A stretch of 34,530 nucleotides of DNA from Chlorobiota bacterium (lineage in GTDB: Bacteria; Bacteroidota; Bacteroidia; Bacteroidales; Prolixibacteraceae): assembly GCA_013152355.1 (NCBI GenBank), contig JAADGO010000005.1, positions 1 to 34,530 on the forward strand, written 5' to 3'. The notes under the pieces were generated by a model. The model worked only from the letters and a program-made list of their open reading frames with translations. It was not told the origin of the DNA and did no database searches. Below, piece after piece: positions 1 to 21,291 of this stretch. The position numbers and the translations under genes were made by a program. The stretch's first letter is position 1; every line of letters starts with the position of its first letter.

Positions 1-280
1 AACAATATCAAACATATTCACCAACCTGAACCTGACCGACATGGAAACCTGCTATAAACTTTTCAGGTCAGATATTATCAAAAACCTTGATTTAAAAGAA
101 AAAAGGTTTGGCTTCGAACCGGAGGTTACAGCGAAAATATCAAGAGTCCCGGGGGTAAGGATTTATGAAATTGGCATCTCCTATTACGGCCGAACTTATG
201 AAGAAGGAAAAAAAATAGGTTGGCGGGATGGGCTTTGGGCCTTGTGGTGTGTGTTGAAGTATAACCTGTTTCCCAGCTAA
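1..280 (+). CDS. Family 2 glycosyltransferase, C-terminal fragment (DPM/GtrB-like)
   Basis: This is the last ~92 residues of a gene that enters from the left edge; the reading frame is open from base 2, so the first internal ATG at 41 is not a real start. The segment [13 protein letters not shown] followed by [12 protein letters not shown] and a [16 protein letters not shown] stretch is the typical C-terminal part of polyprenyl-phosphate sugar transferases (dolichol-phosphate-mannose synthase / GtrB type), which make polyprenyl-P-hexose at the cytoplasmic face. The catalytic N-terminal DxD half lies outside the window. No membrane helix follows, so it would be a single-domain or peripheral enzyme. 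It ends 10 bases before the convergent AlgX-like gene. Family assignment is fairly secure; the sugar donor cannot be told. Confidence 0.85.
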
Positions 281-290
281 AGGTAGTATC

Positions 291-1631: not shown

Positions 1632-1636
1632 ATCTC

Positions 1637-3058
1637 CTAAAATCTGAAATATATAAATGGGTTAAAACCAGTTGTTGTAATGTATGCAGAACATAATAGT
1701 AAAAGTAACAATGAAAGAACAAGATAGATACTATGTCCTGGCACTTTTAAGTTAGAAGTGTAAACCCTTGATTCCAGTTTCCTTCCGAAGTTTGTTAACG
1801 TGATAAATGAGAAGATAAAGCCTAAAATAAGCGTAACATAAAATTCATTATCAAATACTGACAGCGTGTTTGAGAAATCAAAACTAAACATCTTTTTTAA
1901 GTAGAAAAACGCATCAGTAATATTTTCAATACGAAAGAAAACCCAGCCCACCAAAACAACTATGTAGGTGAAGATAGTACGCACAATTGTAGCCGATGAA
2001 TCCAGGATTTTTTTCAGGAATATCCTGTCGAGGACAAGGAATAATCCGTGCCAGGCTCCCCATATTACAAAATTCCAGCTAGCCCCATGCCAGAAACCCG
2101 ATAAAATGAAAACAACGATAAGGTTAAAATACAGCCTTCGTTGAGTCGCTACCCGATTCCCGCCAAGAGGGATGTAAAGGTAATATTTCATAAATTGCCC
2201 CAGTGTAATATGCCAACGATGCCAAAACTCAGTGATACTTCCCGACACATAAGGATTGTCAAAATTCTCAGGGAATTTAAAGCCTATAATCTTCCCTAAA
2301 CCAATTGCCATATCAGAGTAGCCGCTGAAATCAAAATATATCTGGAAAGAATAGGCAACAACTGCCAACCATGCAAAACCCGTGTCAATATTTTCGAGAG
2401 GCATGGAATAAATAGCATCAACCTGTTCACCCAGGACATTCGCAATTAATATTTTTTTCGACAAGCCTATTACAAATCGATATACCCCCAATAGTTTGTT
2501 GTCGATAGTTTCGTTTCTCTTCCTGTCAGATATATCGTCAGCAATAGTATTAAACCGCACAATGGGGCCTGCAATAAGTTGCGGGAACATCAAAATATAT
2601 AATAAATAGTCGGTTAGCTTATCCAGGGGCTTATGTACTTTCCTGTACACGTCAATGGTATAAGTAAGTGACTGGAACGTGAAAAATGAAATGCCAATTG
2701 GCAGGGCAACCTTGACCCAGTGAATGGTATTGAGCGACAAAGATGCCAGGGCAAAATTCACATTGTCGATAAAAAAGTTGGCATATTTAAAATAGCCCAG
2801 TAACCCGAGATTTATCAAAACAGAAATAAGAAGGAACAATTTCCTGTTTTGCTGTTTCTGATAAAGCTGCCTTACCACATAAAAGTTTACACTAAGAGAT
2901 AATATAACCAGAAAAATGAATTTGGGTGCACCCCATGCATAAAAAAAGATGCTGGCAACCAATATCACATAGTTTTTCAAACGTACCCCGACCAAGTGGT
3001 AAACAATGATAAAAACAGGCAAGAAAACGTATAAAAAAAGTATGCTGCTGAAAACCAT
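1637..3058 (-). CDS. MBOAT family O-acyltransferase (AlgI-like)
   Basis: A 473-residue multi-pass membrane protein of normal AlgI/DltB-like length. Diagnostic motifs are PQLIAGPIVRF (about 159-169), FWHRWHITLG (His 280 and His 283) and SGFWHGASWNF (His 324), the last matching the conserved histidine of MBOAT acyltransferases. These proteins carry acyl groups, usually acetyl, across the inner membrane for O-acylation of an exported glycan. It is the first gene of a two-gene operon with the AlgX-like protein just downstream. On the minus strand, a TTTCTTTG box (bases 3073-3080) about 15 bases upstream of the start differs in one base from the Bacteroidota -7 consensus and may be its promoter. 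Confident family call; acceptor glycan unknown. Confidence 0.93.
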   Translation of the reverse strand: MVFSSILFLYVFLPVFIIVYHLVGVRLKNYVILVASIFFYAWGAPKFIFLVILSLSVNFYVVRQLYQKQQNRKLFLLISVLINLGLLGYFKYANFFIDNVNFALASLSLNTIHWVKVALPIGISFFTFQSLTYTIDVYRKVHKPLDKLTDYLLYILMFPQLIAGPIVRFNTIADDISDRKRNETIDNKLLGVYRFVIGLSKKILIANVLGEQVDAIYSMPLENIDTGFAWLAVVAYSFQIYFDFSGYSDMAIGLGKIIGFKFPENFDNPYVSGSITEFWHRWHITLGQFMKYYLYIPLGGNRVATQRRLYFNLIVVFILSGFWHGASWNFVIWGAWHGLFLVLDRIFLKKILDSSATIVRTIFTYIVVLVGWVFFRIENITDAFFYLKKMFSFDFSNTLSVFDNEFYVTLILGFIFSFITLTNFGRKLESRVYTSNLKVPGHSIYLVLSLLLLLLCSAYITTTGFNPFIYFRF

Positions 3059-3117
3059 AAATTAGTTTTACTCAAAGAAACAAAAAATTTCAGAAGGGAG
3101 GAAAGGGCATAAATCAA

Positions 3118-3125
3118 TAACTTTG
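3118..3125 (+). promoter_or_regulatory. Candidate -7 promoter box TAACTTTG
   Basis: Exact match to the Bacteroidota primary-sigma -7 consensus TAnnTTTG, lying 38 bases before the TTG start of the metallophosphoesterase-like gene. No clear -33 TTTG is seen at the usual distance. Confidence 0.5.
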
Positions 3126-3163
3126 TGTAAAATTGCAATTATAAAATTGATAAAGTTTCCATT

Positions 3164-4051
3164 TTGAAAAAGAAATTTCTGGCATTGTATTTAATGTTGC
3201 ATATATGCCTTCTCGTAATGCCTCAGGAAGATACTCTGTCATACCTGTTTATGGGGCATACTTACGAGTACCATTATGCCAACAATAAAGTAGACCCACG
3301 GATTGAACAAATGGACCTTTCAGTGTACAATGGGATTTGGCTAGGCGGCGATGTTTGTTCAGAAAGCCTTATGAACTACAGTACTTTACTGATAATCGAC
3401 AGTTTGTTCCACCTGAAAGCCCCCAATACTCATTGGGCACTGGGTAACCATGATACCAGGAATGGCAACTGGATATGGCTTGAGGAGTTTACCGGCAAAA
3501 AAACCTATTACGCCAGTCATTATAAAGGAATCAGTTATATTGTGTTGAATACCAGCCTTACCCCTTATGATTGTGAGCAACTGGAGGATCAATACAGGAT
3601 GATTGTGAATATGTGCGACACTATCGAAAAATCTTCTCACCTGATAATACTCATGCACCATGGATTATGGGAAGGGGTTCCAGGTTTGCCATCGCCTGTT
3701 TCGTATGCACAAAGCAACCTGAAATACTATAATTTTACCTGCAAGTCGGTTGAAAGTAACTTTGTTAACGAAATATACCCCAGGTTGGTGAAGGTCAAAG
3801 AAAAAGGAATCGAGGTAATATGTATTTTAGGAGATATGGGTGCAAAAAAGATTGATTACCTATCTGACGATGGGATACATTTTTTAGGCACCGGCTTAAA
3901 TAAGAGTCATTATAAAGACCCTGAAGAACGGGCAGCTTCACCTGCCGATTTTATATTGATTTTTAAACATGTCCCGTCAAAAAGATTATTAACCTGGGAG
4001 TTTTACGACCTGGATAAATTCTTGGAAGACAACAAACTATTGGAAAATTAG
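3164..4051 (+). CDS. Exported metallophosphoesterase-like protein
   Basis: A 295-residue protein that starts at TTG; the start is chosen because it gives a basic-then-hydrophobic signal peptide (MKKKFLALYLMLHICLLV). Calcineurin-like phosphoesterase motifs are partly present: GGDVCSE (Asp 62), GNHDTRNG (94-101) and LMHHG (His 165/166). Two canonical features look altered: the first D-x-H is replaced by MGHTYEYH near residue 30, and the final GHxH is replaced by LGDMGAKK near 222. It may therefore be a divergent enzyme or a binding protein of this fold. It stands alone on the plus strand and its 3' end overlaps the convergent T9SS cargo gene by 15 bases. Substrate cannot be inferred. Confidence 0.7.
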   Translation: MKKKFLALYLMLHICLLVMPQEDTLSYLFMGHTYEYHYANNKVDPRIEQMDLSVYNGIWLGGDVCSESLMNYSTLLIIDSLFHLKAPNTHWALGNHDTRNGNWIWLEEFTGKKTYYASHYKGISYIVLNTSLTPYDCEQLEDQYRMIVNMCDTIEKSSHLIILMHHGLWEGVPGLPSPVSYAQSNLKYYNFTCKSVESNFVNEIYPRLVKVKEKGIEVICILGDMGAKKIDYLSDDGIHFLGTGLNKSHYKDPEERAASPADFILIFKHVPSKRLLTWEFYDLDKFLEDNKLLEN

Positions 4052-5500
4052 CTTGCCCCTAAAAATATTATCACCTTTATTTATGACAGTATAGAAATAA
4101 ATCCCGGGCAGGACAGATGGGGAAAATTCATTTATTGTATTTAGTGTTACATTATCTTCAAATACCTTTTTACCATTGATATCGAATAAGGAAAATTTGA
4201 AATTACCTTCATTCTTGGATGTTATTTTAACAGAAATCTTGTTTTGAACCGGGTTGGGGAACACCTGAATTAATTCAAGGCTATCGTTAAACGGCGAATA
4301 CGCCGAAATTACTTCCGGGTTACCGTCTTTTGAAACTTTACAGAGTACAATGTCACTCCGCCCATGGCTTCCCTGATCGGTCCACCCTGTATACATGCAA
4401 CCAGAATCAGGTGTGCAGATTAAATCAGTTCCATAATCGGAGCCTAGGCCGCCAAAAGTCTTTGTCCAGATAATATCCCCATCCAGATTGGTTTTTATTA
4501 AAAACTGGTCCGGCTTCAGGTTTCCTGAATAACTGGCACTGGTGCCGATCATATAAAGCATATTGTCTTCACTAATTTGAACCGACTCACCATATTCGAA
4601 CTCAGGCCCACCGAAGGTTTTCATCCATTCTTCATTTCCCGATTCATCAACCTTCATTAAAAAAACATCGAAACTGCCACTTCCATAACTTTGAGTTGAG
4701 CCACAAACAAAATACCCGCCTTCAGGAGCCAAAATAATATCTTTTGCCCAATCGTGCCCATTGCCTCCAAAGGTTTTATACCATTTTAATTCCCCTGAAT
4801 TATCAGTCTTAATCAGCAAAATATCAGCATCGTGTGTCGAAAAATCAGTCTGGGTAGGATTATAAAATCCGTTTTCAGTCCCGGCCAGCATATAATCACC
4901 CTCCTTGTTTTCAAGTAAACTGAACCCATAATCAACATATTTAGGCCCGAATAATTTTTCCCATTGCATTTCTCCGTTGCTATCGGCTTTTACAAAAAAG
5001 AAATCGCCTCCGTCCAATTGCGTGTTGGAATAACCAATCATTGCAAAGCCGCCATCGCTTGTTCGGATAACATCAAACCCCATATCCTGGTATTGAGTGC
5101 CATAAAACTTTTCCCATTCGGGAAGCCCGTTTTTCCCTAATTTGAAAAGGTGCATGTCAACGTTTGGGAAGCCAAAATCGTAGGCACTGCCAATAACAAA
5201 AACACCCTGTGAGTCAACTAATACCTGGCTGCCAACATCATGGTGCTGAAACCCATATAGGGCTTCACTTGCTATTGTCCCATCAGCATTTAGGCAAAGG
5301 ATATAATAATCTTTTGCGCTTTTTTCATCTTTACGCGAGGTCCCGGCAATGTAATACTTCCCACCGTATGCTGTTAGCGAATTAGCAATATCTTCTTGCT
5401 TGGTGCCCAGCATAATAGCATCCTGGGCATTGGCTACGGATAGTGTTGAAAAAATAAAAGCCATCAAAAACAGGTATGTATGACGAACTACTTTGTTCAT
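4037..5500 (-). CDS. Secreted repeat protein with T9SS type A C-terminal sorting domain
   Basis: A 487-residue protein with a signal peptide ending in VANAQ. The middle has about six repeats of roughly 55-60 residues, each with a W-x-K-x-(F/Y)-G-G or similar turn followed by D-x-G (for example WTKTFGGLGSDYGTDL and WMKTFGGPEFEYGESV), consistent with a beta-propeller. The last ~80 residues, beginning IQVFPNPVQNKISV and continuing FSLFDINGKKV and LPGIYFYTV, are a classic por secretion/T9SS sorting domain, so the protein should cross the outer membrane by T9SS and be attached to or released from the surface. PorQ of the same machinery is encoded at 28307-29341. The biological ligand is unknown; the propeller assignment is by repeat pattern only. 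Confidence 0.88.
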   Translation of the reverse strand: MNKVVRHTYLFLMAFIFSTLSVANAQDAIMLGTKQEDIANSLTAYGGKYYIAGTSRKDEKSAKDYYILCLNADGTIASEALYGFQHHDVGSQVLVDSQGVFVIGSAYDFGFPNVDMHLFKLGKNGLPEWEKFYGTQYQDMGFDVIRTSDGGFAMIGYSNTQLDGGDFFFVKADSNGEMQWEKLFGPKYVDYGFSLLENKEGDYMLAGTENGFYNPTQTDFSTHDADILLIKTDNSGELKWYKTFGGNGHDWAKDIILAPEGGYFVCGSTQSYGSGSFDVFLMKVDESGNEEWMKTFGGPEFEYGESVQISEDNMLYMIGTSASYSGNLKPDQFLIKTNLDGDIIWTKTFGGLGSDYGTDLICTPDSGCMYTGWTDQGSHGRSDIVLCKVSKDGNPEVISAYSPFNDSLELIQVFPNPVQNKISVKITSKNEGNFKFSLFDINGKKVFEDNVTLNTINEFSPSVLPGIYFYTVINKGDNIFRGKLIFQ

Positions 5501-5519
5501 TTTCAGATAAAATATAATG

Positions 5520-5527
5520 CAAACTTA
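5520..5527 (-). promoter_or_regulatory. Candidate -7 promoter box TAAGTTTG
   Basis: On the minus strand this matches TAnnTTTG exactly and lies 19 bases upstream of the ATG of the T9SS cargo gene. It sits about 60 bases before the preferred start of the divergent CotH-like gene. No -33 element is evident. Confidence 0.5.
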
Positions 5528-5581
5528 AAAAGTTTCTTGTTGAATTGTTATTTTAGCGGGTCGTTTCTTAAAGTTTTTATC

Positions 5582-8554
5582 GTGTTTGTACCATCAACAA
5601 AAATTGTATTTTTTTTTATAATTCTTTTTTCCATTGCCTGTTCACAGGATGAAAAAAAAACAATGCGTAAATTTGAAAGGCGGTATTTGTGTGATGCAGA
5701 AACAGTTAATTCTGACAAGTGGGGGTTTGCAGAAGCGTCAGGGCAGCCCGTATTTTTTCAGAATGTCGATACACGGTCGAATGAGTTGGCTTTTAACGGA
5801 GAATTCTCAAGTAAATTAACAGTCGAGAAACCCTATGGGATGACAATTGAGATTGACGATATCCTCCCTGACGACTATATTCAGGTAAATGTTTGGCGGA
5901 AAAGCAGCAAAGGTGACGGCGTTTTGGTAATTGATGGAGGAGAAGGCTTTTATGATGCATCAAAAGAAATAATAGAGACTGCACAAAATGGATGGCAAAA
6001 ATTACAACTAAACTATTTCATCCCGCCAAATTATACGGGGAAGACGATAAAAATTTATACCTGGAACCAAGGGCAGGATACTGTATTTTTTGATGACTTT
6101 GAGATCATTCACCGGCGCAGTAAAAATTATCCGGAATTTGACAATATTCCCGGACTCCGGTTATTTACCAATGAATCAGACCTGGAAAAATTAAACAAGA
6201 AACGCAAATTTGCTTTCGAGAATGGTGCTTTAATAAACTCTGATGAGGATTATTCCAAAGTTATCCTCTATGATGGGAATGATTTTTTAAATGGGAAATT
6301 CCGTTTAAAGGGTGATTTGGTTGACCACTTGCAAGGCGATAAATGGTCGTTCAGGATAAAACTCAAAAAAGGGTTCGCCTGGAGGAATATGGTAACTTTC
6401 TCGATACACAGCCCTGTTACCCGCAACTTTTTGAGTGAATGGCTTTCACACCAGGTGTTTATTAAGGAAGATGTGTTAACGACAAGGTATGGCTTTGTCC
6501 CGATAACCTTAAATGGGAAATCATTAGGATTATATGCATGGGAAGAGCATTTTGAGAAACAGCTACTTGAGAGTAAAAACCGGATGGAAGGGCCTATCCT
6601 TAAATTTGACGAAAGCCTTTTTTGGGCCAGGCTTGTACAAACCAATTTAACCAAACGTCAGTGGGACATAAATTTCTTTGATGCATCAAAAATCCTTCCT
6701 TTCAAACAAAACAAGACTGTTGCCGACACTCTTTTATATACTCAATTGGTTGAGGGGCAAAAACTGGTACAGCAGTACCGCAATTTTTCGTTGCCTGTTA
6801 ATAAAATTTTTAATATTGATAAACTGGCGCGTTATTATGCCTTAGTTGATATTACAAAAGCATACCATGGGTTTACCTGGCATAACCAGCGGTTTTATTA
6901 TAATCCCATTACCTGCCTTCTTGAGCCAATTGCATTTGATTGCTATATTGAAGGAGGGGTTTATCAACGTATTGATGAACCCGTATTAGGGCTGCTTGAC
7001 CCTTCCAAACTGCATGGTTTTTTGAAAGAAGAATTAATGCTCTTTCAGGTTTTTGAGGATAAAGGTTTTAACAGGAAATATATCAATTACCTTAAAATAT
7101 ACTCAAATGAAAACTTTATTTCGGGTATAATGGCCGGATTGTATCCAGAGATTGATTCCATCTCAGAGTTGTTACGAGTAGAATTCCCTGCTTATCATTT
7201 TAATACTGATTTTTTAATGGACAATGCATCGTTCATTCGTAAAAACCTGAAGGAGATAGAAAATAATATTAGCCGGTTAGGAGAAGAGTTCCAGGTGGTA
7301 AAGCATAAAAAATTCAGGATCGATTATACACAGGATATTAATCCTGAATTAATAATAAAGCAGGTTCATGCAAATTACGATTCCCGGTCAGGGAAACTTC
7401 AATTGTCTAATTTCCACAATGGAAGAGTTATTGTAACCGGGGCAATATCAAAAAGTCGGTCTTTAACTGGATTTGAAAAAAAAGTTATTTTACCCCCTTA
7501 TAAAGGAAGCAGCCAGCCCGGGGTTATAATGCTGCAGGATTTTATACCTGAAATGGTTATCTTTTCTGTCGGCAGGAGGGAGTTTATAACGAAAGTAGAC
7601 CCGTGGCCGGTTCCAGAAGGGTTTACCAGCAGGCAGTTATGTATTGGTAGTTTTGATATATCATCGCTTCCTGTCGTTGGCGATTCGATAATTTTTGATG
7701 GTAAATATCAATACAGCTCTGATGTGGTTATTCCTGATTCGTTTCATGTGGTTATGAAGCCGGGAACGCAGTTTGACCTGATAAATAATGCATCGTTCAT
7801 AAGCTTTGCCCCGGTTAAGGTTTTGGGCGAAACGGAGAGGCCTGTAAATATTTTTTCAAGCGATAAGTCGTCCCAGGGTTTTCATATTTTACAAGCCAAC
7901 GAACGGTCGGTGTTGCAATATGTTCATTTCTCCGGGCTTTCAAATCTGAAAAGGGGGGGGTGGCGAACCACGTCTGCAGTTACTTTTTATGAATCGGATG
8001 TTGACTTGTATAATTGTGTATTTAGAGCTAACATTGCCTGTGATGACGCATTAAATGTGGCCAGGTCTGATTTTTTTGTAGAAAACTGCCGGTTCGAAAA
8101 CACCTTTGCCGATGCATTTGATTCTGATTTTAGTACCGGCACTGTCCATAAATGCCGGTTTAAAAATATTGGCAATGATGCAGTTGACTTTTCGGGGAGC
8201 AATGTGGTGATTAAAGATTGTTTTATGGAAGGGATTGGAGACAAAGCCATTTCAGGTGGCGAACATTCAACTTTAAAAGTGACGGATTGTGAGATTTATA
8301 AAACTAATATAGGTATTGCCTCAAAAGACCTGTCGGAGATTACTCTGAATAAAATCATTATTGAAGAGGCAGTGTATGGAATGGTAGCATTTATTAAGAA
8401 ACCGGAATATGGCCCGGCAATTATTAAAATAGACAACCTTAAATTGAAAAATAGTGTTGTCTTCCATAAAATTGAAAAAAAATCAGTATTGATAGTGAAC
8501 GGTAAAATAATAAATGGCACAGAAAAGAATTTAGCTCAAAAATTATATCAATAA
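5582..8554 (+). CDS. CotH-like lipoprotein with N-terminal beta-sandwich-like and C-terminal beta-helix regions
   Basis: The frame is open from an ATG at 5480, but that start would overlap the divergent neighbour. A GTG at 5582 gives a compact lipoprotein signal (MFVPSTKIVFFFIILFSIAC, Cys 20), so a 990-residue protein is preferred. About residues 36-178 form a carbohydrate-binding-like domain ending in FFDDFEI. A CotH-like region follows at about 195-470: FRLKGD, GKSLGLYAWEEHFEK (310-326), WHNQRFYYNP (433-442) and a loop with FDCY (452-455). CotH of Bacillus is a secretory-pathway protein kinase. The C-terminal ~200 residues repeat short units such as NCRFEN, KCRFKN and DCFMEG, typical of a right-handed parallel beta-helix. 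It is first in an operon with DUF4956, VTC and GT-C genes (12-base gap to the next). Kinase activity is not proved; the metal-binding acidic residues look non-canonical (FDCY where DxD-like acids are usual). Confidence 0.8.
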   Translation: MFVPSTKIVFFFIILFSIACSQDEKKTMRKFERRYLCDAETVNSDKWGFAEASGQPVFFQNVDTRSNELAFNGEFSSKLTVEKPYGMTIEIDDILPDDYIQVNVWRKSSKGDGVLVIDGGEGFYDASKEIIETAQNGWQKLQLNYFIPPNYTGKTIKIYTWNQGQDTVFFDDFEIIHRRSKNYPEFDNIPGLRLFTNESDLEKLNKKRKFAFENGALINSDEDYSKVILYDGNDFLNGKFRLKGDLVDHLQGDKWSFRIKLKKGFAWRNMVTFSIHSPVTRNFLSEWLSHQVFIKEDVLTTRYGFVPITLNGKSLGLYAWEEHFEKQLLESKNRMEGPILKFDESLFWARLVQTNLTKRQWDINFFDASKILPFKQNKTVADTLLYTQLVEGQKLVQQYRNFSLPVNKIFNIDKLARYYALVDITKAYHGFTWHNQRFYYNPITCLLEPIAFDCYIEGGVYQRIDEPVLGLLDPSKLHGFLKEELMLFQVFEDKGFNRKYINYLKIYSNENFISGIMAGLYPEIDSISELLRVEFPAYHFNTDFLMDNASFIRKNLKEIENNISRLGEEFQVVKHKKFRIDYTQDINPELIIKQVHANYDSRSGKLQLSNFHNGRVIVTGAISKSRSLTGFEKKVILPPYKGSSQPGVIMLQDFIPEMVIFSVGRREFITKVDPWPVPEGFTSRQLCIGSFDISSLPVVGDSIIFDGKYQYSSDVVIPDSFHVVMKPGTQFDLINNASFISFAPVKVLGETERPVNIFSSDKSSQGFHILQANERSVLQYVHFSGLSNLKRGGWRTTSAVTFYESDVDLYNCVFRANIACDDALNVARSDFFVENCRFENTFADAFDSDFSTGTVHKCRFKNIGNDAVDFSGSNVVIKDCFMEGIGDKAISGGEHSTLKVTDCEIYKTNIGIASKDLSEITLNKIIIEEAVYGMVAFIKKPEYGPAIIKIDNLKLKNSVVFHKIEKKSVLIVNGKIINGTEKNLAQKLYQ

Positions 8555-8565
8555 AAAATATTAAG

Positions 8566-9246
8566 ATGGATAAGTGGAATTTATTTCAACGGTTTTTGAT
8601 CAGCGAAAATGCACAAATCTCGATTTGGGATTTCGTGGTGAATGCATTGGTGATTTTAATATTATCGGCAATCCTTGAATTTACGTATGCCAGATGTGCA
8701 ACGAGTTTGTCAGGGAGGAAAGCGTTTGCAGCAAACTTTTTCCTTATTGCATTTACAACCATGTTGATAATATCAATAGTAAAATCTTCGCTGGCTTTGT
8801 CGCTCGGGTTGGTTGGGGCTTTGTCAATAGTCCGGTTCCGGTCTGCCATTAAAGAGCCCGAAGAACTGGCGTACCTGTTTTTCACCATTGCAATCGGGCT
8901 GGGGCTGGGAGCCAACCAACGGATAATAACAGTGATAGCTGCACTGATTTTGTTGATGATTATCTGGTTGAGGCACTTCCGGACAAGGAAAGACAGTCAG
9001 CAAAACCTGTATCTTACCATAAGCGGGACAGGAGGTGACAAACCATCGCTTGAAAAGCTCAATGCATTGGTACTAGAGAAGTTTAATGCCTCAAAACTGG
9101 TGCGCTACGATGAAACAAATGATTTGATTGAAGTGGCATTTTGGGTTGAAATAAAAAAAACTGATGACTTACATTCATTAAAGATTAGTTTGAATAAAAT
9201 AGACCCTTCTATACGGGTTTCGTTTGTAGATAATAATTCATTTTAG
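8566..9246 (+). CDS. DUF4956 domain membrane protein
   Basis: A 226-residue protein with about four membrane helices in residues 20-136 and a soluble C-terminal domain (about 145-226) that resembles a small alpha/beta domain. The central block LGLVGALSIVRFRSAIKEP (80-98) followed by AYLFFTIAIGLGLGANQ is the hallmark of DUF4956. The function of this family is not established; it is repeatedly found beside VTC-domain proteins and CotH-like proteins, exactly as here, so it probably acts with them in the inner membrane, for instance as a transport or scaffold subunit. Gaps of 11 bases (upstream) and 8 bases (downstream) indicate one transcript. Confidence 0.88.
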   Translation: MDKWNLFQRFLISENAQISIWDFVVNALVILILSAILEFTYARCATSLSGRKAFAANFFLIAFTTMLIISIVKSSLALSLGLVGALSIVRFRSAIKEPEELAYLFFTIAIGLGLGANQRIITVIAALILLMIIWLRHFRTRKDSQQNLYLTISGTGGDKPSLEKLNALVLEKFNASKLVRYDETNDLIEVAFWVEIKKTDDLHSLKISLNKIDPSIRVSFVDNNSF

Positions 9247-9254
9247 GCATCAAT

Positions 9255-9962
9255 ATGGTGGAGGGCTATACCGAATTAACAACTTACCGGTATGAACGGA
9301 AATTTGTTACATGCAGATTGTTCCGGGCACAGGTAGAATTAATAATCAGGCAGAATTCTGCATTTTTTATACCGGTTTTTCACCCGCGCAGGGTGAACAA
9401 TATTTATTTCGACACGCCTGGTTTAGATTGTTATTTTGACAACCTGTTTGGGGTTAGCGAACGTTGGAAAGCGCGAATACGTTGGTACAATTCTTCATTT
9501 GGGCGGATTGCAAACCCCATTCTGGAGTTTAAAATTAAAAAGGGCTTTGTCGGCACAAAAAAATCTTATCCTTTCCCTTCTTTCGAAATTCAAAGATCAT
9601 TTGATGCAAACCTTTTTAACCAGCTTATTTCAGAAAGTGATTTCCCGGCCGAAGTAAAAAAGAAAATATCAGGATTACAACCTGTTTTATTAAATACATA
9701 CACCAGGAACTATTTTTCATCGATCAATGGTAAATTCCGGATAACCATAGATGACCAGATGGAGTATTACAACCTTCGCCCGAATAGGAACTACTTAGAA
9801 TATGCTTATAAAGAAACTGGCAAAACGGTTGTTGAATTAAAATATGGGCAGGAGTATGACCCGGAAGCAAATATTATTACGAACCAGTTTCCTTTCAGGT
9901 TGGATAAAAACTCGAAATTTGTTTCAGGGATGAATCATTTTAGGACTGCTATTGCTACATAG
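9255..9962 (+). CDS. VTC-domain protein (polyphosphate polymerase-like, CYTH/TTM fold)
   Basis: A 235-residue soluble protein. The order of motifs fits the triphosphate-tunnel fold of the yeast VTC4 catalytic domain: YRYERKFV at residues 10-17, NNIYFDTPGLDCYFDNL near 48-64, ERWKARIRWY near 69-78, LEFKIKKG and KKSYPF near 88-102, and VVELKYG near 193-199. The alternating basic and acidic residues in these strands (E-x-K, R-x-R, E-x-K) are those that line the tunnel and bind phosphate and metal. VTC4 makes inorganic polyphosphate from ATP; whether this bacterial homologue does is inference. It has no signal peptide, so it likely works at the cytoplasmic face with the DUF4956 membrane partner. 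The ATG chosen lies 8 bases after the previous stop. Confidence 0.87.
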   Translation: MVEGYTELTTYRYERKFVTCRLFRAQVELIIRQNSAFFIPVFHPRRVNNIYFDTPGLDCYFDNLFGVSERWKARIRWYNSSFGRIANPILEFKIKKGFVGTKKSYPFPSFEIQRSFDANLFNQLISESDFPAEVKKKISGLQPVLLNTYTRNYFSSINGKFRITIDDQMEYYNLRPNRNYLEYAYKETGKTVVELKYGQEYDPEANIITNQFPFRLDKNSKFVSGMNHFRTAIAT

Positions 9963-9985
9963 CACCCTTTTATTACTTTTATTTC

Positions 9986-11365
9986 ATGGCAAAGTTCAAA
10001 AAGAATCTATCGAAATACAGCATTGTTTTCAGTGTTTTACTGGTGGTCTTTTTTATTATTACAGCCCGGTTCTGGAGAGATGACGGGAAAATCATTGCTT
10101 CCGATGTAATTGATTACTATTCTTACCTGCCAGCCACCTTTATTTTTCATGATATTGGAATTAACAAAGCCGAAACCATCGAAAATGGTAGATTTTATAC
10201 AAAAAGACTGCCCAATGGGAATAACGTAATCAAAATGTCTATGGGGATGTCGTTTATTTATGCCCCGTTTTTCTTTGCCGGGCATGTATATGCCCTTATA
10301 ACAGGCGAAAAAGCCAATGGTTTCTCTGTTCCATACCGCATTGCGCTATTATTTGGCGCGGTTCTTTATTTTATACTTGGCCTTATTTTCCTTCGTAAGA
10401 TTTTATTGAGGTTCTTTTCTGAAAATATTACGGCATTAACCATACTAGCCATTGCCATTGGCACTAATCTTTCGTATTATGCCAGTAACGAAGCTACCAT
10501 GTCGCACCTATATAATTTTTCGCTGATTACTGTTTTTATCTGGCATACCATCCGCTGGCATGAATCGCAAACTGTTAAGCGTTTGGTTGGATTAGGGGCA
10601 CTTGCCGGGCTAATCACTTTAATAAGGCCTTCAAATATCATTATACTGCTTTTCTTTTTCCTCTACAATGTTTATTCATGGGATGGGCTTAAAGAGAAAT
10701 TTTTATTTGTAGCAAGAAAATTCCATTGGTTCATCTTCATGCTGATTGCCTTCCTGCTTGTTTGGATACCACAATTCATTTACAACATAGTAATTACTGA
10801 TCATTTATTGTTTTATTCGTATGTTGATGAAAGGTTCTTTTTCAACAACCCACAGATATTGGATGGGTTGTTTAGCTACCGAAAAGGATGGCTGGTTTAT
10901 ACACCAATGATGGCAATTGCGATATTGGGTATCCCTATTTTGTTTTTTAAGATGAAGGAGTTCTCGGTTGGGATTTTAGTTTTTATGGTTATCAATATTT
11001 ATATCACTTTTTCCTGGTGGTGCTGGTGGTATGGAGGTTCATTCGGGCAACGGCCAATGGTTGATTCGTATGGTATGATGTCTATTCCATTTGCACTGGT
11101 GCTTTCAGAATTATGGAAGTTGAGGAAATGGCTGTACAAAACTGCCGTAGTAATTATTATTGCACTCATACTCCTTAATAATTTTATGTTTCAGAAATAT
11201 ATGCACGGGTCGATTCATTTTGCCGACATGACAAAAGAAGCATTTTGGCATTCATTTTGGAGTGTAAGGGCAAAACCCGGATTTTATGATTTATTGGAAA
11301 CCCCCGATTATAAAAAGGCTCGGAAAGGTATCTATGTTATAAAAGAAAGAAAACCAGGCAAATAG
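9986..11365 (+). CDS. GT-C-type membrane protein, possible glycosyltransferase
   Basis: A 459-residue protein with roughly ten hydrophobic segments. The first periplasmic loop holds ASDVIDYYSYLPA (Asp 40 and Asp 43), as in GT-C enzymes that use polyprenyl-phosphate sugars and an acidic loop-1 residue. Further conserved-looking blocks are MSMGMSFIYAPFFFAGH, IRPSNII and FSWWCWWYGGSFGQR. It follows the VTC gene by 23 bases and is probably the last gene of the CotH/DUF4956/VTC operon; it ends 2 bases from the convergent GT39-like gene. This placement suggests that the operon also transfers sugar, or that the modified object is a glycan. Substrate unknown; the enzyme call is by topology and loop-1 acids. 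Confidence 0.65.
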   Translation: MAKFKKNLSKYSIVFSVLLVVFFIITARFWRDDGKIIASDVIDYYSYLPATFIFHDIGINKAETIENGRFYTKRLPNGNNVIKMSMGMSFIYAPFFFAGHVYALITGEKANGFSVPYRIALLFGAVLYFILGLIFLRKILLRFFSENITALTILAIAIGTNLSYYASNEATMSHLYNFSLITVFIWHTIRWHESQTVKRLVGLGALAGLITLIRPSNIIILLFFFLYNVYSWDGLKEKFLFVARKFHWFIFMLIAFLLVWIPQFIYNIVITDHLLFYSYVDERFFFNNPQILDGLFSYRKGWLVYTPMMAIAILGIPILFFKMKEFSVGILVFMVINIYITFSWWCWWYGGSFGQRPMVDSYGMMSIPFALVLSELWKLRKWLYKTAVVIIIALILLNNFMFQKYMHGSIHFADMTKEAFWHSFWSVRAKPGFYDLLETPDYKKARKGIYVIKERKPGK

Positions 11366-11367
11366 GA

Positions 11368-12786
11368 TTACTCAATATCTTTGTTTGTATAAATTTCTCC
11401 CCATGCATGCTTTTGCTTAAAGGTTTTTACCAAAACCTTTTCATTTTTTATGGAATCAAGTTCTTGGCGGTAGTCGTAAAATGTCGATTCATTAATAAAT
11501 ACCTCGGCAGACCTGAACTTGCCCATGTTCATTACATTTGAAAATCCCTTTTTTGCAGAAACATACCCCAGATGAGGATTGCGAAGGCAGAAAATCATGT
11601 TAAAACTTGCGGCAATAGGCTTATCCTGCCAGTTTTCTTCTTCGCAGAATTTCACCATTTGTTGATATGTTTTTACCACCTCAACATAGCCCAGGTCGCT
11701 GTCGGAGCTCGTTTTTTTAGTAAAACTGTAATAAAGCGGAACAACGGTTATGATTGCAAGGATAAAAAAAGTGACATACTGTTTTTTTAACTTAACCTGC
11801 GATAATAATACCGAGACTATAATTACATACAAAGCAAGCAAACTAAGCATATAACGCTGGGTGTAGAAATTTAACACCGAGAATGCCAGAAAAAGAAGCA
11901 TTAATAACAGGATAAGCGAAAGAAGCTTTACAAACTCTATTTTTTTACGTTTTATTAAAATCCAACCTAATGCGTAAATTAAAGCTGCCAGGATAACATT
12001 CCGCCCATAGCCGGTGAAGATTATCGCAGTAGCAATTTTTAATTTCCGAACGATAGTAGCCATGTCAAACTGTATGTACCCAACATGGTCTTGAAACAGA
12101 TATGTGCCAAATTCTTTTTTATGCAGAATCAGGAATCCGGCATACACAAAAAACGGGGTGATAATCAGCAGGCTTTCAATAATATATTTCCGTGATTCTT
12201 TCCCCTGTCGAAGGTGAACCAATGTGTGGAAGAGGAAAAAGGCACATACAAAAACAACCGAGGTTTCTTTGGTTAATACCATTAATGATGCAAGAAGCGC
12301 AAAAAGCACATATCTTTTTGACAAATAGGAATCAATAGTTAAAATAAGGAAAAGGGTAATCAACATTTCGGGCAACAGCATGGTTGCCTGTGCCAGGAAT
12401 AACGACTGCACACTGAATAAAAGCACTGCAGCATTAGCAGCCCATTTGTTCGAATGCCGTTTGACCATAAAATAGGTACTTACCAATACGGCAACAGAAA
12501 TAAGTAACGGTAATAAATGCACGGTAAAAACCTCATTGCCGAACAACCGCATCCATAAAGATGAGATAAAAAAGAAAAACAGCGGATGCCCTTTTGCATC
12601 CCAGAGAGGTAACGAACCGGGCAACATCCCGGGGCCGGTTTCATACATCTTATATACTGCCGGGAAATATGACCATGCCTCATCCCAAAAATAGGGCAGG
12701 TATAAATGAGGAATCTTCACAATCAGTAAAAAGAATATTGGAATAATGAAAAAATTGTTTCCAAGTTTTAAGAGTAGATTCTTCAT
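11368..12786 (-). CDS. GT39/ArnT-like membrane glycosyltransferase
   Basis: A 472-residue multi-pass protein. PYFWDEAWSYFPAVYKM (Asp 35-Glu 36 in the first extracytoplasmic loop) is the signature of the PMT/ArnT (GT39/GT83) superfamily, followed by a KGHPLFFFF segment and a long set of hydrophobic helices; a soluble periplasmic tail of about 100 residues closes the protein. Such enzymes move a sugar from a polyprenyl-phosphate donor to a lipid, glycan or protein on the outer side of the inner membrane. It is the last gene of a minus-strand operon (GT2, GT-C with binding domain, this gene), 20 bases after the preceding gene. The likely donor source is the GT2 enzyme of the same operon. Confidence 0.82.
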   Translation of the reverse strand: MKNLLLKLGNNFFIIPIFFLLIVKIPHLYLPYFWDEAWSYFPAVYKMYETGPGMLPGSLPLWDAKGHPLFFFFISSLWMRLFGNEVFTVHLLPLLISVAVLVSTYFMVKRHSNKWAANAAVLLFSVQSLFLAQATMLLPEMLITLFLILTIDSYLSKRYVLFALLASLMVLTKETSVVFVCAFFLFHTLVHLRQGKESRKYIIESLLIITPFFVYAGFLILHKKEFGTYLFQDHVGYIQFDMATIVRKLKIATAIIFTGYGRNVILAALIYALGWILIKRKKIEFVKLLSLILLLMLLFLAFSVLNFYTQRYMLSLLALYVIIVSVLLSQVKLKKQYVTFFILAIITVVPLYYSFTKKTSSDSDLGYVEVVKTYQQMVKFCEEENWQDKPIAASFNMIFCLRNPHLGYVSAKKGFSNVMNMGKFRSAEVFINESTFYDYRQELDSIKNEKVLVKTFKQKHAWGEIYTNKDIE

Positions 12787-12806
12787 TATCGCAGGTTATA
12801 TAATTT

Positions 12807-14879
12807 TTAAGGATTCCTTCCTTCCTGGGTATATATTATCTTTTTGATGGAAAAATCATCGAAATAGGACGTCTCTTTTCCGGTGTTCCAAAGGTAAATC
12901 TTTAAAGTTTCATTTTCTAGTTCTTTTGTAACTAAAAATTTAATCCGTAATAAGTCCCAACCTTTGTTGTCGGATGTGATGAAGTCATTTTGCGACTTAT
13001 AGAAAATCTTGGCATCATTTGCAGTAACAACTAACCTCCCTTTGTAATTGTCTGCTTTCCTCCATACCTCTACTTCATAAGTGCATCCTAATTGTAAGCT
13101 GTCCAGGTAATATTCTACTGCATATTCGGTTTTATTGTCCAGTTTGAGAGAATGCTTCCCCGACCTTGCTTCTTCATCGCTTTGGGTAAAGGCCTTTCCA
13201 AAAGGTTTACCATTCGAACCAAGGTAGAGATGATTGGGTTCGTCTATTGTTTCATAATCACATTCAATATTTTCAAGGACAACCCTGAAATGTTGGCGTA
13301 CCAGCTTGTTGTACCGGATTGTGTCAAGTTCATAAATAGCCTGAATGCGCCCTTTGTAAACCTGTTTTAATGGAATTCCCCTGTTTCCCATCTCCTGTGC
13401 TGCCTGTTCGTCTCGCGGCCCTCCTACAACAAGTATCTTATTCCCTTTAAATTTAACTATATCTTCCAGGAAAATCTCAGCATTCCAGTTTTGCATCAGG
13501 TTGTAATAAAAATCATAGAAGTATGTGTCAGGGTATAAGGCCTTTAAAGCAGGAAGCAGCTTACGCTTGGTATAAACATCCCCAAAATTTAATGCCGAAT
13601 ATTTATTCAGGGTGTATGGGTAATAATAAATTTTAGTGTAACCCGGGTAATCCCTTTCAATCATTAGGTTGGTCGAATCCATCTCTTCATTGGTGATTTT
13701 ATACCCGTGATCTGCATATTCCATTTGAGGTGGCCTTGCCCATGCCAGGAATATAAATAGTGCCATTACAATTACCGGCAGTGTAGCTCTATGGATAACC
13801 TCCGGCAACAAATCAAAAGGAATATTTTTTAATGAGAAAAAGAGTAGGATTCCTGAAAGCAGCAATTCGGGCAGCAGGTAGTGGTTGGCATGGAAATGTT
13901 TAGCTACCAGCAAAATCCCAAAAACCGATGTGGCAACTAATCCGGACAATATTTTAAGGTCCCGGCCCGATTCCCTGGTTTTTTGTTTCCTTTTTCGGAT
14001 GAATGCAAAAACCAGGACAACAATAGAAAAAAATGTAACGATTCCGAAGATTGGGTTTGCCTCTACTATTTTCCAAATATTGGGGAAATACGTGTTAAGG
14101 TCGACTAATCCTTTTTTGCCATGCCCGTATTTGCCCGTATGCCTGATTAAATCCCTGAACCAGAAATACATGGATTTGTATTCTGGTATGGCAGGTATGG
14201 TGAATAAAACAAACGATACAATGACCCCACCCAGGTAAATCAATTTACTTTTTATCCGGGGGAAGATAAAAAACGGGAAAATCATCAGTGGCAAAAAGGT
14301 GGCTTTAGTCCCTAACCCGGCACCCACGATAAGTGAAAACAGGATGATATATTTATATTTGTGATTTTCCTTTTCGGCATAAAAAAACAATAGGGCGATT
14401 ATAAACAGGGACGTAATAAAAAACAGCAATGGCTCCGGAGAAACCTTCGTCCAAATGTGGTCGAGTGTATTGGCAGAGAAAAAAGATGTTAGCTGTAGCA
14501 ATAATGCTACCCAAACAGAACCGGTTTTTTTTAAGGCAATCAAACCCAATAACAAAATGATCAGAGCATTAAGGAAAAGTAACACATTCTGAATGTCTTC
14601 AATGTATCGGTCAGGATCGGTCAAAACATGGTTTACAAGTGTTTTATTGTTTGGGTTATTGAACAGATGGGTAGCAGCAATGGTAGCAGCCCCGAGCTGC
14701 ATTACCGTTGTACCCGGATTGTCAATATGCCCGACACTTTCCCCCATACAAATAGCAACGGCATTCACCAGGTAAATATATTCCGGGTCGTTGGCATACT
14801 TTGCGCGATGGAAATTAATCCCAACTATAAAAAATAAAACGGGTAAGAATAATATCAGGTATTTCAGGTATCTGTTCAA
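12807..14879 (-). CDS. GT-C-like membrane protein with C-terminal carbohydrate-binding-like domain
   Basis: A 690-residue protein. The N-terminal half has about ten hydrophobic segments and an acidic loop-1 motif YANDPEYIY (Asp 31, Glu 33) followed by HIDNPGTTVMQL, as in GT-C glycosyltransferases. A soluble region of about 150 residues follows. The last part (about 540-682, bases 12834-13262) is a beta-sandwich-like domain with CDYETI, VEVWRK, GWDLLRI and LKIYLWNTG then YFDDFSI. The same order of motifs occurs near the N-terminus of the CotH-like lipoprotein at 5690-6109, so the two domains are homologous. Placement between a GT2 gene (12 bases upstream) and a GT39-like gene supports a role in surface-glycan or protein glycosylation. 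The exact reaction is unknown. Confidence 0.72.
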   Translation of the reverse strand: MNRYLKYLILFLPVLFFIVGINFHRAKYANDPEYIYLVNAVAICMGESVGHIDNPGTTVMQLGAATIAATHLFNNPNNKTLVNHVLTDPDRYIEDIQNVLLFLNALIILLLGLIALKKTGSVWVALLLQLTSFFSANTLDHIWTKVSPEPLLFFITSLFIIALLFFYAEKENHKYKYIILFSLIVGAGLGTKATFLPLMIFPFFIFPRIKSKLIYLGGVIVSFVLFTIPAIPEYKSMYFWFRDLIRHTGKYGHGKKGLVDLNTYFPNIWKIVEANPIFGIVTFFSIVVLVFAFIRKRKQKTRESGRDLKILSGLVATSVFGILLVAKHFHANHYLLPELLLSGILLFFSLKNIPFDLLPEVIHRATLPVIVMALFIFLAWARPPQMEYADHGYKITNEEMDSTNLMIERDYPGYTKIYYYPYTLNKYSALNFGDVYTKRKLLPALKALYPDTYFYDFYYNLMQNWNAEIFLEDIVKFKGNKILVVGGPRDEQAAQEMGNRGIPLKQVYKGRIQAIYELDTIRYNKLVRQHFRVVLENIECDYETIDEPNHLYLGSNGKPFGKAFTQSDEEARSGKHSLKLDNKTEYAVEYYLDSLQLGCTYEVEVWRKADNYKGRLVVTANDAKIFYKSQNDFITSDNKGWDLLRIKFLVTKELENETLKIYLWNTGKETSYFDDFSIKKIIYTQEGRNP

Positions 14880-14891
14880 TTTAAAATGGTT

Positions 14892-15635
14892 TTATTGAGA
14901 GAATATTTTGTTTTTAATCATTCCCCACTTCTGCAAACGGTACTGAACTGCTGTTTTCAGTACCCCCAGCCCGTAAATACTGCTATTCCTGATACTTATA
15001 CTCGAAGCATCGTCAAAATATTTAGTGGGGCAGGTAATTTCGGCAATTTCGTAGCCTGCATACCAAATTTGTGCCAGCATCTGGTTGTCGAACACAAAGT
15101 TATCAGAATTGGCATGGTAATTTATATTCTCCAATACTTCCCGGCTGAAAGCCCTGTAACCTGTATGGTATTCCGAGAGCTTGGCATTCATCAAAATATT
15201 CTGGATGAAGGTCAGTCCACGGTTTGCCGCATATTTTATCATTGGCATGCCTCCTTTTAAAGCCCCCCTACCCAGTATGCGCGACCCAAGCACCACATGG
15301 TACAAACCATTGGCAATAAGGTGCACCATCGAGGGGATCAAAAGCGGAGTATACTGGTAGTCGGGGTGCAGCATAATAACAATATCTGCACCCAGTTCAA
15401 GTGCTTTGTTGTAACACGACTTCTGATTCCCCCCGTAACCTTTGTTTTGTTCGTGTACAATTATATATTTGATGCCAAGCGACTTTGCAACCTCCACAGT
15501 GCTGTCGTTGCTTTTGTCGTCAACTAATATAACATCGTCAACAACCGAAAAATCAATTTCGTTGTAAGTAACCTCTAATGTTTTTGCCGCATTGTAAGCC
15601 GGCAATACAACTACAACTTTCTTATTATTAAGCAT
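14892..15635 (-). CDS. Family 2 glycosyltransferase (polyprenyl-phosphate sugar synthase type)
   Basis: A 247-residue single-domain GT-A enzyme. It shows VVLPAYNAAKTLEVT at the N-terminus, ILVDDKSNDST (Asp 39/40, nucleotide binding), HPDYQYTP (Asp 92, at the metal-binding position), the RGALKGGMP stretch, and the acceptor-side motif SEYHTGYRAFSREVLE with FVFDNQMLAQ after it. This subfamily resembles dolichol-phosphate-mannose synthases but lacks membrane helices. It probably makes the polyprenyl-P-sugar used by the two GT-C proteins that follow in the same operon. No convincing promoter box was found in the 92 bases upstream, so it may be transcribed from ahcY or from an atypical promoter. 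Confidence 0.87.
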   Translation of the reverse strand: MLNNKKVVVVLPAYNAAKTLEVTYNEIDFSVVDDVILVDDKSNDSTVEVAKSLGIKYIIVHEQNKGYGGNQKSCYNKALELGADIVIMLHPDYQYTPLLIPSMVHLIANGLYHVVLGSRILGRGALKGGMPMIKYAANRGLTFIQNILMNAKLSEYHTGYRAFSREVLENINYHANSDNFVFDNQMLAQIWYAGYEIAEITCPTKYFDDASSISIRNSSIYGLGVLKTAVQYRLQKWGMIKNKIFSQ

Positions 15636-15727
15636 CTGTCAGATTTTTGTTAAAAACAGGGGTTAATTTAAACAGTGCATGGTTGTAGTGTAATGTGCTA
15701 TTAATTCCATCCCTTTGGGATTTTCTT

Positions 15728-19365
<3,638 letters not shown>

Positions 19366-19388
19366 AACTGTAATACCCCTAATTTCCT

Positions 19389-19396
19389 CAAAATTA
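19389..19396 (-). promoter_or_regulatory. Candidate recQ -7 promoter box TAATTTTG
   Basis: Minus-strand match to TAnnTTTG, 23 bases upstream of the recQ ATG. The -33 element is not recognisable in the A/T-rich sequence behind it. Confidence 0.45.
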
Positions 19397-19514
19397 ATTC
19401 TAATTTATTAAAAGTAAGTAAAATGACAAAAGCTATTTGAAAAAATATTCTTATTCATGGATTGAAATTACAATAAAAAAAAAAGTATACAAACATGAAA
19501 TGTTTTGAAGTGAT

Positions 19515-19522
19515 TATATTTG
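19515..19522 (+). promoter_or_regulatory. Candidate tatC -7 promoter box TATATTTG
   Basis: Exact TAnnTTTG on the plus strand, 36 bases upstream of the tatC ATG and divergent from the recQ box. It would drive tatC and lptB. Confidence 0.55.
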
Positions 19523-19558
19523 TAGAGTTTTTATGAGTAATATTTATACTGTAGATGA

Positions 19559-20416: not shown

Positions 20417-20422
20417 TATAGC

Positions 20423-21157: not shown

Positions 21158-21166
21158 TAAAAAAAA

Positions 21167-21198
21167 TTTCCGCACGTATAAAAAAATTATTAGCTTTG
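21167..21198 (+). promoter_or_regulatory. tRNA-Leu promoter (TTTC / TAGCTTTG)
   Basis: TAGCTTTG at 21191-21198 matches TAnnTTTG, and TTTC at 21167-21170 (one base off TTTG) lies 20 bases before it. The box ends 11 bases before the mature 5' end of the tRNA, the spacing expected for a short leader. This is the best promoter in the window. Confidence 0.7.
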
Positions 21199-21209
21199 CG
21201 CCGCAAATT

Positions 21210-21291
21210 GCGGACGTGGCGGAATTGGTAGACGCGCTAGACTTAGGATCTAGTGCCATACGGCGTGGGGGTTCGAGTCCCTTCGTCCGCA
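21210..21291 (+). tRNA. tRNA-Leu, anticodon TAG
   Basis: The acceptor stem pairs GCGGACG (21210-21216) with CGTCCGC (21284-21290), with discriminator A at 21291. The D arm reads GGCGGAATTGGTAGACGC, the anticodon stem CTAGA/TCTAG encloses loop CTTAGGA (anticodon TAG at 21244-21246), a class II variable region GTGCCATACGGCGT follows, and the T arm has GGTTCGAGTCC. It decodes CUA-type leucine codons. CCA is not encoded. It has its own promoter and a terminator downstream. Confidence 0.97.

Follow-up and report, generated by a model that had tools for sequence, protein, structure and literature searches.

A CotH-like, DUF4956 and VTC gene module with a divergent CotH domain in a Bacteroidota genome, a candidate cell-envelope phosphate system

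The window analyzed here is the whole 34,530-nucleotide stretch of contig JAADGO010000005.1 (assembly GCA_013152355.1, positions 1 to 34,530), from a Bacteroidota genome of 3.38 Mb with an estimated completeness of 98.4%. Four plus-strand open reading frames (ORFs) lie in a row within it and encode a CotH-like lipoprotein, a DUF4956 membrane protein, a VTC protein of the triphosphate-tunnel type and a GT-C-like membrane protein. The gaps between them are only 11, 8 and 23 bases, and it is therefore likely that the four genes are a single transcription unit. A preliminary description of this DNA had noted the four closely spaced genes, which the ORFs confirm, and had joined them into a phosphate-based surface modification system. 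Its start for the first gene, 5582, is an in-frame GTG, whereas the ORF already opens at 5480; the GTG likewise leaves a plausible lipoprotein signal by eye (Cys54), so that either position could be the true start. A genome-wide Pfam search (E ≤ 0.001) demonstrated that the locus holds the sole CotH, VTC and DUF4956 matches in the genome. The features central to the analysis are the following.

3164-4051, plus strand: calcineurin-like metallophosphoesterase, signal peptide seen by eye; put forward as fourth member (Pfam Metallophos below cut-off; linkage; phyletic test)
5480-8554, plus strand: CotH-like lipoprotein (Pfam CotH PF08757 and Beta_helix PF13229; AlphaFold model, Foldseek, VIA-align, residue counts)
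8566-9246, plus strand: DUF4956 membrane protein with a C-terminal ACT-like domain (Pfam PF16316; 78-sequence alignment; structure model; fold search)
9255-9962, plus strand: VTC / triphosphate-tunnel protein with Vtc4-type tunnel residues and Glu14 (Pfam PF09359; profile match to yeast Vtc4, 3g3q; 99-sequence count)
9986-11365, plus strand: GT-C-like membrane protein, probably co-transcribed, not a conserved member (hydrophobic topology; adjacency; phyletic test)

Conservation of the neighborhood was surveyed in the best 80 of 536 confirmed matches that a DUF4956 alignment gave in named genomes, ranked by similarity to the window DUF4956 protein and so biased to its subfamily (loci L063-L142); L112 has no called DUF4956 ORF, leaving 79 loci. 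Among the matches listed, the closest named carriers of window-type DUF4956 include Mariniphaga, Maribellus and Puteibacter. Within 5 kb of DUF4956, VTC is encoded in 72 of the 79 loci and a CotH-like protein in 50, many contigs ending early. Among the 28 loci whose sequence extends 9 kb or more to either side, VTC lies within 5 kb in 26, CotH-like in 25 and both in 23; these last are referred to below as the 23 complete loci. All three genes form one unbroken same-strand run in 37/79 loci, in the order CotH-DUF4956-VTC (22 runs), DUF4956-VTC-CotH (5), DUF4956-CotH-VTC (4) or others (6). Because contiguity persists through these changes of gene order, a shared function of the three proteins is favored. 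Nine stretches around the best VTC matches of relatives were also inspected, at least five of their genomes (L055-L059) being common to both sets. All seven from the same taxonomic family (L054-L060) carry contiguous CotH-like, DUF4956 and VTC genes in the same order on one strand, and the two from the same taxonomic order (L061, L062) carry DUF4956 and VTC without an adjoining CotH-like gene.

The phyletic distribution gives the same picture. Among 61 related genomes, VTC and DUF4956 are both present in 10 and DUF4956 is found alone in only 1 (p = 1e-10), while a CotH-like protein occurs in 8 of the 10 genomes with VTC and DUF4956 vs 2 of the 51 others (p = 6e-7). The cuts used for these counts were set after viewing the tables (DUF4956 above 200 bits, phosphoesterase above 100 bits); the VTC set is without the weak match of G344 and includes the partial one of G339, and the CotH-like set takes in G346, which is fragmented, and G347, which is 70% complete. 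At the class level (295 genomes), DUF4956 is found in 161, VTC in 144 and CotH in 170, and VTC lies within 3 kb of 126 of the 150 DUF4956 places among the matches listed. Carriers of the module include Bacteroidota, several metagenome-assembled genomes (MAGs) labeled as other phyla, and at least one archaeon, a methanogen. We conclude, with little room for doubt, that the CotH-like, DUF4956 and VTC genes constitute a real three-gene module. Their belonging together had been proposed in the preliminary description, and both the 37 contiguous loci and the shared phyletic pattern bear this out.

Several arrangements depart from that of the window. In the archaeon Methanogenium marinum (L141, 9980-15131), DUF4956, a divergent CotH-like protein that keeps the histidine described below, a metallophosphoesterase and VTC are encoded in one run. 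Another VTC-DUF4956 arrangement (L034-L039) has a gene of about 355 residues on the VTC side in 6/6 stretches, and no CotH-like gene was found in these six. In L045, VTC and DUF4956 are followed by a DUF2490 outer-membrane protein (10234-10872; E = 2.6e-23). By size only, the same slot holds similar genes in L043 and L050 and genes of about 225-280 residues in most of L143-L156.

The VTC protein matches Pfam VTC PF09359 (E = 2.3e-24, 86.7 bits vs a cut-off of 23), and yeast Vtc4 (3g3q) is matched with E = 6e-8 by a profile built from 15 related sequences. In the alignment with Vtc4, K16 corresponds to K200, R74 to R264, R76 to R266, K93 to K281, K102 to K294, R151 to R361, R162 to R373, K218 to K455, S220 to S457 and K221 to K458, and the surrounding motif suggests that E194 is the counterpart of E426. 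The numbering of R264, R266 and E426 agrees with PMC9911596 and that of K458 with PMC4641920. Among 99 VTC sequences (102 matches less 3 of 190 residues or fewer), R12, K16, R74, R76, R151 and R162 are present in 99/99, K93, E194, K196, S220 and K221 in 98, K102 in 92 and K218 in 79. At position 14 (yeast Thr198), 92 of them have Glu and the other 7 Asp. The first strand accordingly reads R-x-[E/D]-x-K in all 99 proteins, between R-x-T-x-K of Vtc4 and the phosphatase-type E-x-E-x-K, which we take to be the first-strand motif of CYTH-type phosphatases. In yeast, R264A/R266A/E426N impairs VTC (PMC9911596) and K458 of Vtc4 is catalytic (PMC4641920). By our own mapping, position 14 may occupy the place of AtTTM3 Glu-4, part of a tunnel-phosphatase acidic patch described as 'not found in Vtc4p' (PMC4641920). 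The places of that patch at R12, K102 and K196, mapped in part by inference, are basic. The tunnel residues on which the preliminary description had staked its reading of this protein are kept, and judged by sequence the tunnel appears intact; polymerase activity is not proven by it.

The DUF4956 protein matches Pfam PF16316 (E = 1e-16, 61.6 bits vs a cut-off of 30.6). Most DUF4956 proteins of the class score 140-205 bits among the matches listed, placing the window protein in a divergent branch. In an alignment of 78 sequences the segment S75-L101 is nearly invariant, and R90, R92, K96, P98, E99 and E100 are present in 78/78, giving an invariant basic and acidic stretch R90-x-R92...K96-x-P-E-E. 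The structure model (pLDDT 78.7, pTM 0.58) shows helices from 20 to 139 and, from 146 to 222, an alpha-beta domain. This domain resembles ACT domains (3ibw, TMt 0.68), with no fold match at E ≤ 0.001, and a profile search against solved structures returned only chance-level matches (best E 0.57, viral envelope chains). Similarity to MgtC is weak (Pfam E = 0.074, NCBIfam E = 0.0051). For the Streptococcus intermedius relative, an ACT domain is noted and the C-terminal domain is predicted to be cytoplasmic (PMC12345266). If this holds for the window protein, the loop at 91-97 would be cytoplasmic as well and would place the basic patch at the inner mouth.

The CotH-like lipoprotein matches Pfam CotH PF08757 (E = 1.8e-9, 38 bits vs a cut-off of 23.8) and, above the curated cut-off, Beta_helix PF13229 (E = 7.9e-8). 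Its AlphaFold model (pLDDT 85.7, pTM 0.82) resolves three domains, two of which had been missed previously, the N-terminal one resembling a carbohydrate-binding module (CBM) and the C-terminal beta-helix.

Residues ~65-215, nt 5672-6124, plus strand: CBM-like domain
Residues 222-598, nt 6143-7273, plus strand: CotH fold
Residues 724-1018, nt 7649-8533, plus strand: AlgG-like right-handed beta-helix

Foldseek matched the N-terminus to the porphyran CBM 8xmz (E = 1.9e-4) and to CBM22 and CBM16 (E ~ 1e-3), and the CotH-fold domain to 5jd9 (E = 3.5e-11). VIA-align superimposed the beta-helix on AlgG (Z 27.5, 270 aligned residues, root-mean-square deviation 2.5, 10% identity) and the CotH-fold domain on CotH (Z 22.1, 327 aligned, 3.6, 17% identity). 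A shared fold at 10% identity with AlgG is no evidence of epimerase or lyase activity, and neither is assigned to the beta-helix. Foldseek rows for toxin-pore, insecticidal-protein and tailspike structures are partial domain-fold matches.

Profile alignment with Bacillus cereus 5jd9 places H463 at the catalytic Asp and D487 at the second Asp. The two aspartates of 5jd9 are 23 residues apart, which fits positions 228 and 251 of Bacillus subtilis CotH, where the D228Q and D251A variants are inactive (PMC7821199). Because canonical CotH has one residue fewer in this loop, either H463 or G464 could be the true counterpart of the catalytic Asp. Among 77 family matches, a set that includes the window protein, duplicate genomes and a few canonical-like proteins (for example that of L050, which has Asp and is also among the 19 below), position 463 is His in 70, Gln in 2, Asp in 2 and a gap in 3. 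At position 487, Asp is found in 65 of these proteins and Glu in 7, and other kinase-type positions are largely kept (N469 in 63, E355 in 71, E356 in 72). By comparison, ordinary CotHs encoded close to a VTC-DUF4956 pair keep the catalytic Asp in 19/19 cases; for this, 14 loci with canonical CotH were picked for a high-scoring CotH within 6 kb of DUF4956, and a type IX secretion system (T9SS) sorting tail is present in 3 of 4 canonical class examples scanned. In L047, L048, L049 and L052 a canonical CotH (Pfam E = 3.1e-52 in L047 and 3.8e-52 in L052) and a divergent one are encoded in the same gene run, and the divergent protein is therefore not simply the kinase of the system. The preliminary description had spoken of a kinase-like fold and of protein phosphorylation by CotH in Bacillus; a plain kinase label fails here, the residue essential in B. 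subtilis being His, and judged by its sequence the divergent protein would be a pseudokinase or an enzyme of different chemistry.

A further gene is linked to the module. The protein encoded at 3164-4051 falls just under the cut-off of Pfam Metallophos PF00149 (20.6 vs 21.5 bits); of seven relatives scanned, three pass, one is just under and three are without a match. In 44 aligned relatives (48 matches less 4 of 200 residues or fewer), GD and GNH are present in 44/44, and GH stands at the place of the usual first calcineurin-like motif, which we take to be DxH. Of the 23 complete loci, 15 have a metallophosphoesterase relative no more than 9 kb away (counted up to E = 1e-3 after iteration). 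Counted up to E = 1e-20, a relative shares one same-strand run with the whole core trio in a Bacteroidales MAG (L082), a 'Deltaproteobacteria' MAG (L124), a Calditrichaeota MAG (L130) and Methanogenium marinum (L141); in most loci it is a neighbor outside the run. Among the 61 related genomes, it is present in 5 of the 8 with all three core genes (triad genomes) vs 2 of the 53 others (p = 2e-4). We propose this gene, whose link had gone unnoticed, as a better fourth member than the GT-C-like gene.

The latter had been singled out in the preliminary description as what distinguishes this version of the system. No Pfam match (E ≤ 1) was found for the 9986-11365 protein or for five homologues, and its best NCBIfam match is weak (NF047440, E = 0.0054, 15.6 bits vs a cut-off of 200), so the GT-C label rests on hydrophobic topology. 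The survey of DUF4956 homologues, in which VTC and CotH-like genes do co-occur as anticipated, places a homologue of this gene within 1.5 kb downstream of VTC in only 3 of the 23 complete loci (L068, L070, L115) and within 9 kb in 5. Homologues are found in 4/8 triad genomes vs 17/53 others (p = 0.43), with a weak link to the triad when restricted to at least 40% identity (p = 0.02). With that reservation the gene is rejected as a core member, and it looks like a neighbor from a glycosylation cluster. In the Mariniphaga-like loci L063, L064, L066 and L071 the slot after VTC holds a protein of 478 to 492 residues, in L064 a methyltransferase-GT2 fusion by Pfam.

The remaining features around the module are as follows.

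291-1631 and 1637-3058, minus strand: AlgX-like and MBOAT/DltB-like pair (Pfam, NCBIfam)
4037-5500, minus strand: T9SS-sorted beta-propeller-like protein (Por_Secre_tail E = 1.2e-8)
12807-14879, minus strand: membrane protein, GT-C-like by topology, with a CBM-like C-terminus (own-genome match to the lipoprotein at 12774-13274; Pfam CBM_4_9 E = 0.089)

The CBM-like module of the lipoprotein recurs at the C-terminus of the 12807-14879 membrane protein (minus-strand match 12774-13274, E = 4.2e-18). The AlgX-like and MBOAT/DltB-like pair possibly serves O-acylation of a surface polymer, and 7 of the 23 complete loci have an MBOAT or AlgX relative no more than 9 kb away. Pfam families were scanned in 125 of 201 eligible neighbors, taken nearest first, with the 25 commonest families listed; GT2 (10), MBOAT (4) and PMT_2 (4) are among them, as are PdxA (5) and GTP1_OBG (3). 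The two glycan-type folds of the lipoprotein, the repeated CBM-like module, the AlgX and MBOAT genes and an O-antigen-ligase-like gene within the L052 run speak for a link to glycans, and the neighbor scan speaks against a universal one. On balance we favor the view that the module acts on a surface polysaccharide.

Some further observations concern the surroundings. A pair of the lipoprotein and a CBM-bearing membrane protein is also found in four module-carrying genomes of the family (G306, G308, G320, G324). The propeller gene and the CotH-like gene are divergent, with a 21-base overlap between the start of the former and the ORF of the latter; of the 28 loci that extend 9 kb or more to either side, 11 have a propeller relative within 9 kb. 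One run in L052 (8501-18683) encodes DUF4956, VTC, canonical CotH, a Wzy_C O-antigen-ligase-like protein, divergent CotH and a metallophosphoesterase. Domain scans covered the window genes up to 26322, those at 15728-26322 being mostly housekeeping (S-adenosylhomocysteine hydrolase, RecQ, TatC, trigger factor, ClpP, ClpX). An Rfam search of positions 1-15700 found no element.

The set of three families has been described before. Genes for CotH, a poly-phosphate polymerase, DUF4956 and DUF4832 are accessory genes contiguous with pelDEADAFG in Gram-positive pel operons (PMC7112168), and CotH, the polymerase and DUF4956 are taken up again in PMC12345266, whose authors failed to find synteny outside Pel loci. 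The window carries the same three protein families, likewise contiguous. It differs from the pel accessory set in that it has no adjoining pel gene and its genome has no PelG match. In addition, the catalytic Asp is missing from its CotH, CBM-like and beta-helix domains flank the CotH fold, and its module has a metallophosphoesterase partner. PelG was searched in the window's own genome alone; no pel gene was found among the scanned window genes, and no pel family is among the 25 commonest neighbor families of the other loci. A Pel context is rejected for the window module, since its own genome is without PelG, and the CotH/VTC/DUF4956 module is therefore not Pel-bound.

Three other systems invite comparison. 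In the yeast VTC complex, the synthesis of polyphosphate on the cytosolic side is coupled to a channel that has a lining of basic residues (PMC9911596). This complex resembles the window proteins in its VTC tunnel domain, whose catalytic residues are the same, and in having a membrane partner with conserved basic residues. Unlike it, the window's 9255-9962 protein has only the VTC domain, with no SPX or DUF202-type domain by Pfam, its membrane partner is from an unrelated family, and residue 14 is acidic. The Bacillus CotH kinase (5jd9; PMC7821199) has the fold and the second Asp in common with the window protein, which differs in the His at the first Asp, the CBM-like and beta-helix domains and the lipoprotein signal. 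In Clostridium perfringens NELoc-2, genes for VTC, a 222-residue membrane protein and CotH lie side by side (PMC2879425); that membrane protein is annotated there as a tubulin/FtsZ GTPase. In the literature searched, which did not extend to most subscription papers, no paper was recognized that deals with the divergent CotH, with a link to the phosphoesterase or with any biochemical function.

A cell-envelope phosphate module would account for these observations, and as a whole mechanism we offer it tentatively. In the cytoplasm, the VTC protein would use ATP to build a phosphoanhydride polymer or some comparable donor. DUF4956 would be its membrane partner, probably an oligomer with the invariant basic patch at the cytoplasmic mouth, and would pass the product across the inner membrane. 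Outside, the CBM-like and beta-helix domains of the lipoprotein would bind a surface polysaccharide, its CotH-fold domain would use or hold phosphate on this glycan, and the secreted metallophosphoesterase would trim or remove the phosphate. In favor of the mechanism are the contiguity and shared phyletic pattern of the three genes, the retained VTC tunnel residues, the invariant basic residues of DUF4956, the yeast precedent, the CBM-like and AlgG-like folds and the metallophosphoesterase link, and also the S. intermedius deletions of the DUF4956 or cotH gene, which alter the amount of Pel and reduce aggregation (PMC12345266). The predicted topology fits that of the preliminary description (cytoplasmic VTC, membrane DUF4956, lipoprotein outside), whose observations stand and whose interpretation is about half supported. 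In a more specific version, VTC and DUF4956 would export polyphosphate, or its bond energy, as a fuel where there is no ATP; the Asp-to-His CotH would be a polyphosphate-using transferase, with His as base or phospho-carrier, phosphorylating a surface polysaccharide that is bound by the other two domains of the lipoprotein, and the metallophosphoesterase would reverse this. We regard that version as a long shot.

A number of results weigh against such a phosphate module. The exchange of the catalytic Asp for His in 70/77 proteins makes phosphotransfer by the CotH domain doubtful. The acidic residue at VTC position 14 in 99/99 sequences is unlike Vtc4 and like the tunnel phosphatases. The fold search sees only the ACT/ferredoxin-like parts of DUF4956, and there is no evidence of a channel by sequence or fold. 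Glycan genes are only moderately common among the 125 neighbors, where housekeeping genes recur. In S. intermedius, the VTC mutant still aggregated, with no loss reported in the available part of the source, and the DUF4956 mutant lost aggregation in one medium (PMC12345266); the two mutants differ, and the proteins therefore do not simply serve one step there.

The alternative that survives best, and to which we give the same tentative standing as the phosphate module, is a regulatory one. Here VTC and the ACT-like domain would be sensors of the nucleotide or phosphate status of the cell, and their signal would pass through the membrane to the CotH/beta-helix lipoprotein. The latter, a non-catalytic pseudokinase, would govern how polysaccharide is exported or assembled, and no phosphate would cross. 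The Asp-to-His exchange, the ACT-like C-terminal domain and the joint presence of canonical and divergent CotH in L047, L048, L049 and L052 agree with this. So do the S. intermedius deletions, in which Pel amounts shift oppositely (more Pel in the DUF4956 mutant, less in the cotH mutant), aggregation being lowered in both in one medium (PMC12345266). Set against it, the near-invariant VTC tunnel residues and catalytic Lys suggest catalysis, and N469, D487, E355 and E356 of the lipoprotein are largely kept (63, 65, 71 and 72 of 77), as is the His itself.

Unlikely by our estimate is a third reading, in which the VTC protein would be a (poly)phosphatase of the tunnel type, or else an enzyme that processes nucleotides, and would form with DUF4956 an MgtC-like pair for phosphate or stress homeostasis, the surface genes being coincidental. 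It draws on the acidic residue at the place of AtTTM3 Glu-4 (PMC4641920) and on the faint DUF4956-MgtC similarity, but the other mapped acidic-patch places are basic (R12 in 99/99, K196 in 98/99, K102 in 92/99) and contiguity with the lipoprotein gene survives the changes of gene order. Least probable is an ordinary ATP-dependent CotH kinase in which another residue supplies the catalytic Asp and H463 is misaligned or secondary, as the retained fold and the one-residue loop ambiguity might allow, because neither H463 nor G464 is Asp, no nearby Asp or Glu is invariant in the family by eye, and ATP, as a matter of general knowledge, is not expected outside the inner membrane.

The cell-envelope phosphate module differs from the version first described in its fourth member and in its kinase, and its function is put forward as an inference from the genes. 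The module shows that the CotH/VTC/DUF4956 set known from publications can stand apart from Pel, and it is wider than the available published descriptions. Within it, a family is singled out in which the essential residue of a kinase is almost uniformly His. Surface polymers are decorated in a compartment thought to lack ATP, which raises the question of where a kinase-like protein on the outside might obtain its phosphate donor; the module joins a possible phosphate-polymer synthase, a membrane partner, a predicted glycan-binding protein of the CotH fold and a phosphoesterase.

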